Assembly (NCBI GenBank): GCA_005223075.1
Contig: NJBO01000010.1
Span: 1-64,000, forward strand
Direction: 5' to 3'
Source: a candidate division TA06 bacterium B3_TA06
GTDB taxonomy: Bacteria; Hydrothermota; Tepidihabitantia; B3-TA06
Length of the DNA: 64,000 nucleotides
Numbering within the stretch: the first letter of the stretch is position 1; each line of letters starts with the position of its first letter. This document shows positions 23,375 to 28,691 of this stretch, one piece after another. The translations under genes and the position numbers were made by a program. The notes under the pieces were generated by a model, which was not told the DNA's origin, did not search any database, and saw nothing but the letters and a program-made list of their open reading frames with translations.

Positions 23375-24874
23375 ATGGGGTGGACTTTTTTATTAATGAC
23401 CCTTGTAGGACAGATCGTGGGGGACACGGCCTTCTCGTTGGAAGGTGTTGCCTCTATCTCGGGGGCTCTTTCCTACAACTATGTTGATCCTTACCTGTAT
23501 CTTTTGAACTATGATTACAAGAACCCAGCATCTGCTTCGTGTATGCGCGGCGCGGTTACCAATCCTGCTGCACTTGCCTTGGTGAAAACCGCCGCAGGAG
23601 GCCTTGCAGCAGGCTTCGGCCGGACTGGCGGGGTGGAACTTACCCTGAGTTCCGAGATACCCTACGTGGGCGAGGTGAAGGTGCCCATCTCCTTCTACGC
23701 TGAGGAGGCAAGCGGGGTATACTTCGGCGGCGGTGCGGCAAGGATGGGTGAGGTAGTTGTGGGGTTTGCGTACGTAGAAGGAGACCGCTTCAATGGGGAT
23801 ATTTTTGCACGTGCAGATGTTGCCTTCAGCGCCACCTACTCGTTGCGCGACACCCTTACAGAGGCCGATCTTCCCGGCCAGGAAGAGGGAACTACTATCC
23901 CTATACTCATAGACCTGAAGGGAGAGGGGGGTGGATCGATGGCTATTGAGGGCAGAGCCCGACTCAAGGCAACGCCCTTCTATCTTATCCTTGCCACCGA
24001 AGATAGGGGGATAAACTACGGGGTTGCTTTTCGTTGGAGCACCTTCGACGGCTGGATTGACTATACTGACACCCTTACCCCTGTGTTGAAGCCAACCGGT
24101 GCTATGGTTTACTCCGAATCTGATGAATGGGACGTCGGGGTGTCTATTTCAGCGGTGGTTGAAGGGGGCGAGATATACTCCAACAAATACTCTGCTATCC
24201 TCGTTGGGAATCAGCTGGGAGCAGCTTTCGGAATGCAGAAGCCGAGCGATCTAATTAGTTGGGGGTTTTCAGTGGAGCAGGATCTAGGCGCGAACATACT
24301 GCGCACAAGGATCGGGGGAAGCAGGAGAGGAGGGCTGCCTCGGGTTGTCGAGCTTAATACTGAGAACCTCGAGGTGGACGCTGATGCAAGGATTCTTAAA
24401 GGTGAGATGACCGTTGTGCTGGGCTATGATGATCTTCAGGTGAGTGAGGTGGAGAGTAGGGAGTTGCTTACCCTGCCCCCGCGGACCTCTTTCCGTGGAG
24501 GGATTCAAGTAACACCTGGGGATTGGATCATAGATGCGAGTTTTACCGCGTCAAGAACATGGGGGCGCGGAACTAGTGAGGTGTTCTTCGGGACAGGTTT
24601 CGGTTATAACTGGAAGGTACCTATCCGCTTCAGTCAGGCTCTCTTCTACCGCGTGACGAAGATAGAAGAGATGCCTATCTACTCGATCCCCGGACTCTTC
24701 TTCGGGGTCTCCACCACGCTTGAATGGAAAGGTCTGGGGCTTGATCTTTCAATTCGTGCGAACACAACAACCGCGTTCTTTGGTGAGTACGCCGCGGCGA
24801 TCGATCCGGACGTGCCGGATCTGGGTATCATAAACTACCTGAGCGCAGGAGCGGGCTTGAGCTATGGCTTCTAG
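23375..24874 (+). CDS. Predicted outer-membrane beta-barrel protein
   Basis: This 499-residue protein starts with a signal peptide (MGWTFLLMTLVGQIVGDTAFS) and then consists of alternating polar/aromatic strands with many Gly and Tyr, for example SGALSYNYVDPYLYLLNYDY early on. It ends in INYLSAGAGLSYGF, with the terminal Phe of outer-membrane proteins. An early NPAALALVKTAAGGLAAGFG region recalls the NPAGL start of PorV-type barrels but is not close. I chose the ATG at 23375 from its place after a strong -10 box and because it gives a clean signal peptide. A GTG at 23336 would extend it by 13 residues. It overlaps the next gene by 11 nt. Function unknown. Confidence 0.72.
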   Translation: MGWTFLLMTLVGQIVGDTAFSLEGVASISGALSYNYVDPYLYLLNYDYKNPASASCMRGAVTNPAALALVKTAAGGLAAGFGRTGGVELTLSSEIPYVGEVKVPISFYAEEASGVYFGGGAARMGEVVVGFAYVEGDRFNGDIFARADVAFSATYSLRDTLTEADLPGQEEGTTIPILIDLKGEGGGSMAIEGRARLKATPFYLILATEDRGINYGVAFRWSTFDGWIDYTDTLTPVLKPTGAMVYSESDEWDVGVSISAVVEGGEIYSNKYSAILVGNQLGAAFGMQKPSDLISWGFSVEQDLGANILRTRIGGSRRGGLPRVVELNTENLEVDADARILKGEMTVVLGYDDLQVSEVESRELLTLPPRTSFRGGIQVTPGDWIIDASFTASRTWGRGTSEVFFGTGFGYNWKVPIRFSQALFYRVTKIEEMPIYSIPGLFFGVSTTLEWKGLGLDLSIRANTTTAFFGEYAAAIDPDVPDLGIINYLSAGAGLSYGF

Positions 24875-26660
24875 CAGGATGAGTGTTGCTGAACGAAGGA
24901 GAAGGGAACGTAAAAAGAGGCTGACAGGAGTTATACTTTCGCTCTTTCTTCCCGGTTTGGGACAACTTGCTACGGGAAGGATAGGTATCGGTATCGCAGC
25001 CTTGATCCTGGATGCGGGTTTCGTGCTTTTCCCCTTGACCATGATAAGGATAGTGGTGATCCAGAATGAACTCACGAATCTAACCTGGCTTATCTGGCTG
25101 TTATGGGGTGTTACATTTGGACTCTATTATCTCCTTGTTGCCTACGACGCCTACCGCGGCACACGGCTCCGGACCGCTCCTTGCAGGGGTGACTGCCCTG
25201 CGGAGATAAACGTTTCAGACTACGTGGCGCTTGTTGCAGCAGGACGTTATGCCGAAGCGCTTGAGCTTATTCGTGAGCGTGCACCTCTGGCCGCGACCCT
25301 TGGCAGGATATGTCCTGCACCTTGCGAGGAGGTTTGCACCAGAACAAGGATAGAAGAACCCATAGCTATCCGGGCACTCAAGCGAAGTGTCGGGGAACAC
25401 AGCGGTGGCGAGTCTACTAACTCGCAGTTCACCGTCAAGCATCCTCAAAAAGTAGCGGTTGTTGGAGCGGGTGCATCGGGCCTCAGCTGCGCCTATTTTC
25501 TTGCAAAACGAGGTTATTCGGTTGATATATTCGATCGGGAGGGGAGTCCTGGCGGGCTGCTTTCAACTACCATCCCTTGTTTCAGGTTTCCGCGTGAGGC
25601 TTTGAAGGAAGACATCGACTTTATCCTTTCATCAAGCGAGGGGATTCATTTCAAAGGCGACAAGACACTGGGAGAGAACCTCGATCTAGGTGAACTGGAG
25701 CGCTCCTACGACGCCTTATATCTGGCTTTGGGGGCATCCAAGCCAAGGCCCTTAAGAATAGAGGGAGAAAACCTCAGAGGCGTAATCCCAGGACTTTTAT
25801 TCTTACGTGATGTTTGCACAGGTGAATCCTCTTATTCATTCTCCGGCCACGTTGCGGTTCTGGGTGGAGGCAACACCGCTGTGGACTCAGCCAGGGCAGC
25901 ATTAAGGCTTGGAGCAAAGAACGTGACCCTGTTCTACCGTCGTAGGCGTGAGCATATGCCTGCCTATGCAGGAGAGGTAGCCGAGGCCGAGAAGGAAGGG
26001 GTGAAGATTAAGTTCCTTGCCGCTCCCCTAAGGTTCGAAGGCAAGGATAGGGTTGAACGTGTGCGTTTCGGACGCATGAGGCTCCTAAGTCACGGATTAG
26101 GACGCGGTTCTGAACTTGAGGCGGTCGAAGGTGAAGAGTGGAACGAAGAGGTTGAGGCGGTGATCGTCGCGGTCGGTCAGGAGCCTGACCTTACACTCCT
26201 AGAAAACCTTCCTACAGACATAGACGGCAGGATCAAGGTGCGCCGCAGCTTACGGGTCCCTCACCGCAAGCTCTTTGCCGGCGGCGACATGGTCCGCGGT
26301 CCGGCAGCAGTTGTCGAGGCTGTGGCAGACGGACGTAAGGCAGCACAGGCCATAGATTTCTTCTTAAGGCCGCGGTTCCTGCCCGGATTCTTTGAGCATA
26401 TTGCAGATTTTGATCCTGACTTCGGGCTTGAGAGACTTGAGGGCGCTGCATGGACCGAGAAAAAGCCTCCGGTCAAATCACGGGTCAGAGAACAAACCAA
26501 TTACAAGAATCCGGGTCTTTACGTAGAGACCATATGCGGATTGACCGGAGAATCAGATCAGGAGGAAGCAAAGCGCTGTCTTCGATGTCAGCGGTACAAC
26601 GTAGGGTTTGCCTACCGCAAGGGCAAGCAGAAAGGATATCTATCTTTAGATGAACGCTAA
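24864..26660 (+). CDS. Membrane-anchored GltD-like FAD/NADPH oxidoreductase
   Basis: Residues 1-100 of this 598-residue protein form a membrane part with two or three hydrophobic segments, beginning LSLFLPGLGQLATGRIGIGI, which resembles the TM2/DUF5683-like small membrane domain. The rest resembles the glutamate synthase small subunit: cysteines in CRGDCPAEI (about 106) and ICPAPCEEVC (about 149) for iron-sulfur clusters, FAD loop VVGAGASGLS (about 198), NADPH loop VLGGGNTAVDSARAAL (about 332), GGDMVRGPAAVVEA near the end, and a final CLRC. GltD-like modules pass electrons from NAD(P)H to partner enzymes; no GltB is nearby. Fusion to a membrane domain is unusual. It is the second gene after the barrel gene and overlaps thiD by 11 nt. 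The electron acceptor is unknown. Confidence 0.82.
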   Translation: MASSRMSVAERRRRERKKRLTGVILSLFLPGLGQLATGRIGIGIAALILDAGFVLFPLTMIRIVVIQNELTNLTWLIWLLWGVTFGLYYLLVAYDAYRGTRLRTAPCRGDCPAEINVSDYVALVAAGRYAEALELIRERAPLAATLGRICPAPCEEVCTRTRIEEPIAIRALKRSVGEHSGGESTNSQFTVKHPQKVAVVGAGASGLSCAYFLAKRGYSVDIFDREGSPGGLLSTTIPCFRFPREALKEDIDFILSSSEGIHFKGDKTLGENLDLGELERSYDALYLALGASKPRPLRIEGENLRGVIPGLLFLRDVCTGESSYSFSGHVAVLGGGNTAVDSARAALRLGAKNVTLFYRRRREHMPAYAGEVAEAEKEGVKIKFLAAPLRFEGKDRVERVRFGRMRLLSHGLGRGSELEAVEGEEWNEEVEAVIVAVGQEPDLTLLENLPTDIDGRIKVRRSLRVPHRKLFAGGDMVRGPAAVVEAVADGRKAAQAIDFFLRPRFLPGFFEHIADFDPDFGLERLEGAAWTEKKPPVKSRVREQTNYKNPGLYVETICGLTGESDQEEAKRCLRCQRYNVGFAYRKGKQKGYLSLDER

Positions 26661-27432
26661 GGTGCCTTTAGCGCTTACCATAGCCGGCTTTGATCCATCT
26701 GGCGGTGCCGGTATCCAGGAGGACCTCAAGGTCTTTCACGAACTGGGTGTGCATGGACTTTCAGTAGTCTCAGCGATTACAGTGCAGTCCAGCTTCGGGA
26801 TGCGCAGGGCCGTAGTGGTTAAGCCTGAACTGGTTTCAGAACAGATCAACTGTCTCTTGGAGGACCGCCAGCCTGCTGCTGCCAAGACCGGTCTTCTTAC
26901 CACCAACGTTCTGCCTGCGATAATCGAGTTCCTGAAGAAGATTTCGTTCCCTGTGGTGGTTGATCCGATCTTTGAATCCGGTTCAGGCCTTTTGCTTGCC
27001 TCCTCCCAGATGATTGAACTCTACAGAAAAGAGGTGATTCCCCGCGCCGCTCTGATCATCCCCAATGTGCCTGAGGTGGAGAGGCTTCTGGATATCACCA
27101 TCGTTGACAACAGTTCACTTGAAGGGGTCGCGCGTTCTTTGCTCAATATCGGGGCCAAGGCGGTGCTCATTAAGGGCGGGCATCTGAAGGAAGATCAGGT
27201 GGTGGATCTTTTCCTTACCCGAACCGATGCCCGCAGATTCGTTAAGCCCAGGCGAGGTTTCCGCGACGTCCACGGTACCGGATGCGCGCTCTCTGCAGCG
27301 ATAACCGCGTATTTAGCGAGGGGCTCTTCCATGGCCGATGCCGTTGCTTCTGCTGAAGCATACATAGACCGCAAACTGGCCGATCTTTTATATGCCGGTG
27401 AGGGCACGCCAATAATCAATCACCTCAAGTAA
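26650..27432 (+). CDS. thiD: HMP/HMP-phosphate kinase
   Basis: This 260-residue ribokinase-fold enzyme phosphorylates hydroxymethylpyrimidine twice for thiamine synthesis. Motifs are AGFDPSGGAGIQEDLKVF near residue 11, VVDPIFESGSG, LIIPNVPEVERLL and the anion hole DVHGTGCALSAAITAYLA. It overlaps the GltD-like gene by 11 nt, so it is probably co-transcribed with it. It is followed by a repeat-filled gap and then the AIR-synthase-like gene and thiE, forming a thiamine group. Confidence 0.95.
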   Translation: MNAKVPLALTIAGFDPSGGAGIQEDLKVFHELGVHGLSVVSAITVQSSFGMRRAVVVKPELVSEQINCLLEDRQPAAAKTGLLTTNVLPAIIEFLKKISFPVVVDPIFESGSGLLLASSQMIELYRKEVIPRAALIIPNVPEVERLLDITIVDNSSLEGVARSLLNIGAKAVLIKGGHLKEDQVVDLFLTRTDARRFVKPRRGFRDVHGTGCALSAAITAYLARGSSMADAVASAEAYIDRKLADLLYAGEGTPIINHLK

Positions 27433-27629: not shown

Positions 27630-28691
27630 GTGAACGAAGAAGCCAAGTTTCCTGCCATAGGTAAGGTCTCACCGGAGTTCTTCAATACAGTAATCTATCC
27701 GGCACTAGGCGCCAAACGCCCCGAGGTTCTGGTAGGTCCCCATCACGGAGTGGATATCTCAATCGTGCGAACCGCACCCGGCAAGGTGATGGCAGTTACC
27801 ACCGATCCCATCTACATCGTTCCGCCTTACGGTTGGGAAGAGGCGGCGTGGTTCGCCTGGCACATCCTTGCCTCAGACGTCACAACCTCCGCACTTCCTG
27901 CGGCCTATGCTGTTTTCGATTTCAACATGCCCATGAGTATCACCGAGGAGCAGTTTGCTAAGATCTGGAAGGTGTTTGACCGCGAGTCAGAGAAGTACGG
28001 GGTGGCCATAATCGGCGGGCACACCGCACGTTACACAGGCACCGACTACCCGATGGTCGGAGGCGCCACGTTCATTGCCGTTGGCGATGAGGATGCCTAC
28101 ATCACCCCTCAGATGGCCAGGCCGGGTGACATCCTCTGCATGACCAAGAGCGCCGCGGTTGAAGCCGTTGGCATCTTCTCAAGGCTCTTCAACGAGAAGA
28201 TAAAGGAAGGATTGGGAGAGGAAGTGGCAAAGAAGGGCTGGGAGATATTCAACCTTATGAGTACGGTGGACGATTCCCTGGCCGCGGCACGGTTCGGTGT
28301 GCGTGAAGCCGGTGTGGCCGCCATGCACGATGCCACCGAGTGCGGGGGTATCGGTGCCGCGTGCGAGGGATCGGAGGCGGGTCGTGGCGGGCGAGAGTGT
28401 TGATCTCGGTGGTGTGTGGTCTACCCTGAGATCCGCGCAATCTGCGAGATGTTCGGCATGCAGTCTGAGATCTCCATAAGCGAAGGAACGCTGATTCTTG
28501 CGGTCAAAGAGAAGCACTGGCAGGCATTTAGCAAACACATGGCCGCCCGTAACACACCAATAACCGAGATAGGTCGATTCATGAAAGCATCGGATGGGAT
28601 TATGGTCATCCGCGGCGGCAAGCGCGAGCCGTTGAAGCATCCCAGGGTTGATCCCTTCTGGTCTGCGTTCGACCGGGCAATGAAGGGATGA
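27630..28691 (+). pseudogene. AIR-synthase-related (PurM/HypE-like) kinase-type gene, interrupted
   Basis: Bases 27630-28403 encode 257 residues with PurM-superfamily features: GPHHGVDISIVRT, TTDPIYIVPPYGW, IIGGHTARYTGTDYPMVGGA and MHDATECGGIGAA. A TGA at 28401-28403 stops the frame. The family C-terminus (VVYPEIRAICEMFGMQ to the end) resumes in the same frame from 28416 to 28691. Between about 28365 and 28415 the sequence fits better in another frame (VVAGESVDLGG at 28381-28413), so two compensating indels, one probably a GT duplication at 28414-28415, best explain it. It lies between thiD and thiE and could act on a thiamine-pathway phosphate, as ThiL does, but this is inference. It may be decayed or a sequencing error. 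Confidence 0.7.

Follow-up and report, generated by a model that had tools for sequence, protein, structure and literature searches.

Modules of the GltD type are normally soluble and take electrons from NADPH; they are known from the Nfn-ABC transhydrogenase (entries 9n5u and 9bov) and from StnC (entry 8oh5), where a Fer4_20 domain is combined with an FAD- and NADPH-binding domain and, in 9bov and 8oh5, also with a C-terminal RCLxC motif, and where the module sits in a large transhydrogenase complex. The GltD region of StnC has been described as holding two [4Fe-4S] clusters, FAD and NADPH (PMC10482914). Here we analyzed a 64,000-nucleotide stretch of DNA from the candidate division TA06 bacterium B3_TA06 (the window: positions 1 to 64,000 of the forward strand of contig NJBO01000010.1, assembly GCA_005223075.1) and, on it, a fused gene whose product shares these parts with Nfn-ABC and StnC but carries an N-terminal membrane domain and is missing the partner domains. 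GltD itself (2vdc and 6s6s) has the same fold, with a TM-score of 0.79 normalised to the GltD chain; unlike GltD, the fused protein misses the family cut-offs, has two probable cluster cysteines at its C-terminus and is encoded without GltB among the scanned neighbours. The features of the fused gene are:

24864..26660, + strand: fused gene encoding a DUF5683/TM2-like membrane domain and a GltD-type NADPH/FAD/Fe-S module (598 aa, ATG start)
24864..25163, + strand: N-terminal membrane domain (residues 1-100), motif PGxGQ...R...G, with DAYxG at its end (alignment, Pfam, hydropathy, model)
24981..25061, + strand: predicted membrane helix 1 (residues 40-66; hydropathy, AlphaFold2)
25074..25166, + strand: predicted membrane helix 2 (residues 71-101; hydropathy, AlphaFold2)
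25146..25400, + strand: Fer4_20 domain (residues 95-179) with invariant Cys107, 111, 150, 154 and 158 (Pfam E 7.4e-20, alignments)
25449..26333, + strand: Pyr_redox_2, FAD/NADPH-binding (residues 196-490; Pfam E 6.8e-32, Foldseek)
26574..26588, + strand: C-terminal RCLRC with Cys572 and Cys575, conserved without exception across the 16 fused rows of alignment A1 and matching, in the alignment, the RCLxC motif found in StnC and in Nfn-ABC (9bov)

Fer4_20 and Pyr_redox_2 were both matched above their Pfam cut-offs and in order (71.3 bits against 25.8 and 111.5 bits against 26.1, respectively). The seven cysteines C107, C111, C150, C154, C158, C572 and C575 were invariant in the 16 fused rows of alignment A1 as well as in the 45 rows of alignment A6. 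The closest solved relatives were the GltD-type parts of Nfn-ABC and StnC, and a Foldseek search with the AlphaFold2 model ranked the same entries at the top; the alignment with 9bov and 8oh5 spanned residues 105-576, through the C-terminal RCLRC, where Cys572 and Cys575 are probably two more cluster ligands that complete a cluster with Cys107 and Cys111. That the fused protein is a complete NADPH/FAD/two-[4Fe-4S] GltD-type module of the Nfn-ABC/Stn type is well supported by these similarities. The curated cut-offs of the GltD family were missed (TIGR01316, 261.7 vs 471.75; TIGR01318, 229.3 vs 482.95; PRK12771, 394.5 vs 516), and no GltB was found among the four neighbouring open reading frames (ORFs) of the window, all scanned with Pfam and two also with NCBIfam, a scan that did not extend to the rest of the genome.

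The sequence-only reading of this locus had described a TM2/DUF5683-like hydrophobic part of about 100 residues ahead of a complete GltD-like module, and the ORF, Pfam, AlphaFold2 and hydropathy all agree with it. Residues 1-121 of the window's protein matched no Pfam family at E 10; of the 19 family members scanned, at a lenient threshold, 15 matched DUF5683 (best E 4.6e-5) and 2 matched TM2, so that the label is a fair one. The PGxGQ-, R-, G- and DAYxG-type motifs of residues 1-100 were common to 19 aligned relatives. The AlphaFold2 model placed a helix at residues 8-28, a short helix at 30-36 and long helices at 40-66 and 71-101 ahead of the GltD fold (45 input rows, of which only those of the window and of L138 were meant to cover the membrane part; mean pLDDT 82, 61-81 in blocks of the long helices). 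Hydropathy averaged over 19 rows gave two segments, 43-61 and 76-94, in agreement with the model helices, and the same average gave a net charge of +5.1 for the N-terminus and +0.3 for the loop between the helices, which suggests that both ends of the two-helix hairpin lie on the inner side. The membrane part is under constraint in comparison with L046 (dN 0.079 vs dS 0.52) and L045 (0.085 vs 0.54); towards the close relative L043 there were too few changes to judge (dS 0.027, dN 0.018), and towards L048 the dN of the membrane part exceeded that of the core (0.40 vs 0.26). Anchoring of the module in the membrane by its N-terminal domain is, on this evidence, well supported.

A second start near residue 100, which would yield a soluble protein, had been named as a check, and none was found, nor was there a start just before the cysteine motif. 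Codon 1 is preceded by AGGAG 12 nt upstream, and the frame contains no ATG, GTG or TTG between codons 65 and 121, the latter already lying beyond Cys107 and Cys111; no soluble form retaining the cluster cysteines can therefore arise, and an alternative soluble start was ruled out. The GTG codons 64 and 65 have a Shine-Dalgarno-like TAAGG(A) 3-5 nt upstream, and codon 65 with this hexamer could give a form with one helix (helix 2 being retained) that would likewise not be soluble.

Each of the eight genomes that make up the window's family encodes the full-length fused protein, the other seven copies being 60-95% identical, and the fusion was found in 43 of 147 genomes of the window's phylum (WOR-3), distributed over 12 families. 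A genome was counted when its match to a profile of the membrane domain and first cysteine motif reached that motif (the match in G054 is cut by a contig end). Outside the phylum, the fusion occurred in four genomes (G172, G319, G270 and G309; 390 genomes searched), and it was found in 0 of 1 and 0 of 17 genomes of the phyla of two other genomes. Among 80 loci returned by a scan of contigs, L138 (WOR-3) alone was clearly fused in this way (membrane-domain profile E 6.5e-39), with nine others giving E-values of 6e-5 to 7e-4. We found nothing in favour of the fusion being an artefact of assembly or of accidental read-through from one gene into the next, and we reject both, with a negligible probability left to them: the fusion occurs in 43 phylum genomes and four outside them, and its motifs are conserved across the junction. 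Relatives with the two parts as separate genes, which the sequence-only reading had coupled to such an error, were encountered in part only: all three genomes of genus g33 encode the membrane domain as a stand-alone gene that ends in DAYKG and has no GltD part after it (77 aa; L227:3775-4008, L228:4411-4644, L229:4185-4418). Two long fusions from outside the phylum (L257:5841-7796 and L258:4411-6381; 651 and 656 aa) are extended at the N-terminus, ahead of the membrane domain, by a zinc-ribbon-like segment with CxxC...CxxC.

In a first tree of 144 GltD cores (FastTree), the 42 fused rows fell into two groups of 31 and 11. For tree tests, near-identical rows were thinned to 26 fused and 59 others, and the long-branched fused row G086 was dropped; fused rows as one clade were not rejected (p-AU 0.463). 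After addition of the four outside rows, keeping the resulting 30 fused rows in one group gave a tree that was 26.5 log units better than that of the free search (p-AU 0.706), and a single origin of the fused proteins is possible and slightly favoured.

Gene neighbourhoods were compared for 42 fused loci besides the window, several of which are cut by contig ends, so that all counts of neighbours are lower bounds. A gene for a NapH-like polyferredoxin adjoins the fused gene in 20 of these loci, from five families, lying upstream on the same strand in 16 (f3, f4, f7) and tail-to-tail in four (f19, f35). In f19, the fused gene also stands beside a gene for an AmmeMemoRadiSam radical SAM enzyme (L057:7680-8807, similar L056:7722-8849); the L057 copy scored 430.5 bits against a cut-off of 220, and its N-terminus looks like a signal sequence. 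A TlpA/ResA-type thioredoxin gene was found up to about 5 kb upstream of the fused gene in 17 of 42 loci (four families) and a DUF6029-type barrel gene upstream in 18, both in families f3, f7, f35 and f37. The TlpA and barrel profiles were made from members of these same loci, and the family names hence rest on the members scanned: L071 (ResA/AhpC-TSA and DUF6029), L231 and L250 (DUF6029). All four f37 loci show the gene order TlpA, two CxxC proteins, barrel, fused gene; in L231, the one scanned, the barrel matched DUF6029 and the CxxC proteins matched Omp28 (63.8 bits, above cut-off) and DUF1223 (38.3 bits, above cut-off, with Omp28 below). The stand-alone membrane-domain gene of g33 lies directly beside a NapH-like gene in G065, and in G117 and G121 one methyltransferase-like ORF, whose start is overlapped by the end of the membrane-domain gene, stands between the two. 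This adjacency is a hint that the membrane domain itself could be the dock for the NapH-like protein.

The NapH-like protein comprises a Fer4_5 (PF12801) membrane part and a C-terminal two-cluster ferredoxin domain. Two such proteins were scanned with TIGR02163 (NapH/MauN) and scored 56.0 and 69.7 bits, below the cut-off of 213.05, and the protein is therefore named NapH-like only. Across eight rows, 17 cysteines were conserved. Three helices are clear, with the loop 82-112 and the C-terminus positive; as the first 62 residues are also net positive (+4.8), a weak N-terminal helix must be assumed if Cys42/45/52 and Cys138/141 are to lie outside by a simple charge rule. With that helix, cysteine motifs would be placed on both faces of the membrane. 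A search for a solved structure of a relative matched soluble ferredoxin-type parts only. Proteins of this kind have been assigned electron carriage across the membrane in an account that leaves most of them without a known function (PMC8238504). A NapH-like profile matched 41 of 43 fused genomes of the phylum vs 80 of 104 others (E 1e-10, some matches weak; p 0.008, uncorrected for kinship), and three of the four fused genomes outside the phylum.

What was observed directly is the conserved fusion with its cofactor motifs, and the genes that surround it; from these we infer the docking to the NapH-like protein, the direction of the electrons and their thiol end point in the following scheme. 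The two-helix hairpin, with both ends inside, would tether the GltD-type module to the inner membrane face, where electrons would pass from NADPH via FAD to two [4Fe-4S] clusters (Cys107/111/572/575 and Cys150/154/158). The clusters would then reduce the NapH-like polyferredoxin, with the membrane domain as the dock, and this protein would carry the electrons across the membrane. As final acceptors, TlpA/ResA-type and Omp28-type (CxxC) thiol proteins of the envelope, which several families encode in the same operon, appear likeliest, together with the DUF6029-type outer-membrane barrel. In its general form, as a membrane-anchored NADPH dehydrogenase module feeding a transmembrane Fe-S relay that serves the cell envelope, we give this proposal a probability of about 0.5. 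The entry of electrons from NADPH through the module is well supported by homology to solved enzymes, the NapH-like protein as partner is moderately supported by adjacency in five families and by the g33 case, and the envelope thiol proteins as final acceptor are weakly indicated by operon content in four families. The complete route, in which reducing power from NADPH in the cytosol would cross the inner membrane by way of the anchored GltD module and the NapH-like relay and reach envelope thiol proteins of the TlpA/Omp28 type, is proposed tentatively, as a possibility that we would not yet favour; some lineages would use it alongside CcdA/DsbD and others instead of it.

The window's own genome holds every part of this scheme, at three loci. 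In addition to the fused gene, it has a NapH-like gene on contig C2 (L093:7276-8193; Fer4_5, 52 bits), directly followed by apparent ispD, dxr and rseP genes (names from reading of the sequence), and on contig C7 (L250:1085-6587) tandem CxxC proteins, a TlpA-type thioredoxin and a DUF6029 barrel are encoded in a row. One of the C7 CxxC proteins has a sub-threshold Omp28 match and one a Por secretion-type C-terminal tail.

Several observations weigh against the proposed relay. The NapH-like gene adjoins the fused gene neither in the window nor in 22 of the 42 loci, and it was not detected in G080, G138 and G309. It is also common without the fusion, as seen in the 80 of 104 other phylum genomes, so that other donors must exist. 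Two cysteine motifs of the NapH-like protein from the window's family, the one that aligns with Cys191/195 and the last cluster motif, depart from those of other families. The TlpA profile had no match close to the fused gene in 25 of the 42 loci, including all those of f1, f2, f4, f12, f15, f18, f19 and f25, nor any within about 6 kb of it in the four genomes outside the phylum. The free trees split the fused rows of the phylum into two groups, and two changes are required by branches with strong support. CcdA/DsbD is the usual source of periplasmic reducing power; a gene of this type is present in the window's genome, and PF02683 (DsbD_TM) was matched in 18 of the 43 fused genomes (two below the Pfam cut-off), compared with 56 of the 104 without the fusion in the phylum (p 0.21).

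The immediate neighbours of the fused gene in the window are:

23375..24874, + strand: upstream gene, likely an outer-membrane barrel (start at a Met conserved in 8/8 rows; 11-bp overlap with the fused gene; barrel nature inferred)
26650..27432, + strand: thiD (TIGR00097 above cut-off; its first 11 bp shared with the end of the fused gene)

The barrel gene is present in all eight genomes of the family and matched nothing in Pfam or NCBIfam; hhalign found no homology to the DUF6029-type barrel (probability about 0.3%, with shallow profiles). thiD directly follows the fused gene in the window and in seven of seven family relatives, and was not seen beside it in other families. The barrel-thiD neighbourhood is thus specific to the window's family. 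The sequence-only reading had taken both genes as clues that electrons from NADPH are delivered to a membrane or envelope acceptor. The general idea gains from the NapH-like and TlpA neighbours of other loci (20/42 and 17/42, respectively); the two clues themselves gain no support, as thiD was seen beside the fused gene in this one family only and the overlapping barrel could not be related to that of the other families.

Other destinations for the electrons have to be considered. The fused protein might, as a membrane-bound dehydrogenase, pass electrons from NADPH to the quinone pool or to a carrier at the inner face, with none of them reaching the periplasm and with the NapH-like protein, where present, as its quinone-facing partner. 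This would suit both the loci without a TlpA gene nearby (25/42) and a description of NapH as a putative quinone-binding subunit (PMC8238504), and yet it would leave the recurrent operons with TlpA (four families), Omp28/CxxC proteins and barrels unexplained; we regard it as rather unlikely. The anchor might also merely concentrate the reductase at the membrane, where its electrons would serve radical or Fe-S enzymes of biosynthesis, possibly those that make thiamine in the case of the window's family. The constant position of thiD in that family is what speaks for such a role. However, ThiD itself is not a redox enzyme, and in other families the gene that recurs beside the fusion is the NapH-like one instead of thiD, which makes this explanation improbable.

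The proposed relay could also run in reverse, with envelope thiols or another envelope donor being oxidised and NADP+ reduced, to which we attach a low probability. Two points count against this direction: in the systems known, TlpA/ResA-type proteins work as reductases, and no periplasmic donor with a sufficiently low potential is evident. In its favour, the GltD-type modules of the Nfn and Stn transhydrogenases link NADP(H) to other carriers (PMC10482914), and the direction is not fixed by sequence.

If the relay ends at envelope thiols, it would resemble CcdA/DsbD, which would likewise bring cytosolic reducing power to TlpA/ResA-type envelope proteins. The two differ in that CcdA/DsbD uses cysteine pairs, whereas the proposed route would use FAD and Fe-S clusters, and they share no homology: PF02683 matched neither the fused protein nor the NapH-like proteins scanned, so that any likeness lies in the proposed role only. 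No DsbD_TM match was found in 25 of the 43 fused genomes, including 4/4 of f37 and 2/2 of f35, many of these assemblies being incomplete. The fusion as a general replacement of CcdA is unsupported as a rule, given that absence of CcdA is not enriched in fused genomes.

Among systems with NapH-like proteins, the extracytosolic ones described in PMC8238504 come closest, in that a Fer4_5 membrane protein is proposed there, as here, to move electrons through the membrane to envelope partners. In contrast to those systems, the NapH-like gene here neighbours one for an NADPH module with a membrane anchor, and the proteins on the envelope side are of the thioredoxin kind. The same paper states that the reactions of most NapH-like systems remain unknown, with a quinol donor merely probable in some cases. 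NapH-like membrane proteins are widespread, and an NADPH module that is anchored and encoded against a NapH-like gene is a concrete and testable candidate donor. If the thiol end point is true, the route would be a second chemical principle, besides the cysteine relay of CcdA/DsbD, for reducing envelope thioredoxins, and a little-known way to power redox chemistry outside the cell interior, in a phylum of which very few members are in culture.

The fused protein is not the only case of a GltD module coupled to a membrane-type part. A GltD-type module in a Pseudodesulfovibrio metagenome-assembled genome (L151:5332-7554) combines a hydrophobic N-terminal stretch with FeS (PF04060), Fer4, Fer4_20 and Pyr_redox_2; its N-terminus reads as RnfB-like, not DUF5683-like, and it possibly serves an Rnf complex. 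Literature searches of PMC-licensed articles returned no article that describes the fusion or a NapH-like gene paired with it, and a term search of the main text of a WOR-3 genome survey (PMC12542636) found NapH, thioredoxin and glutamate synthase all unmentioned. The parts are already known, while their combination and its proposed use look new.

In the window beyond thiD, a TGA at 28401-28403 cuts short an AIRS-family gene (27630-28403, 257 aa) whose relative in L043 is open for 353 aa. The approximately 23 residues before the stop diverge sharply, as would result from two compensating indels or from an assembly fault.

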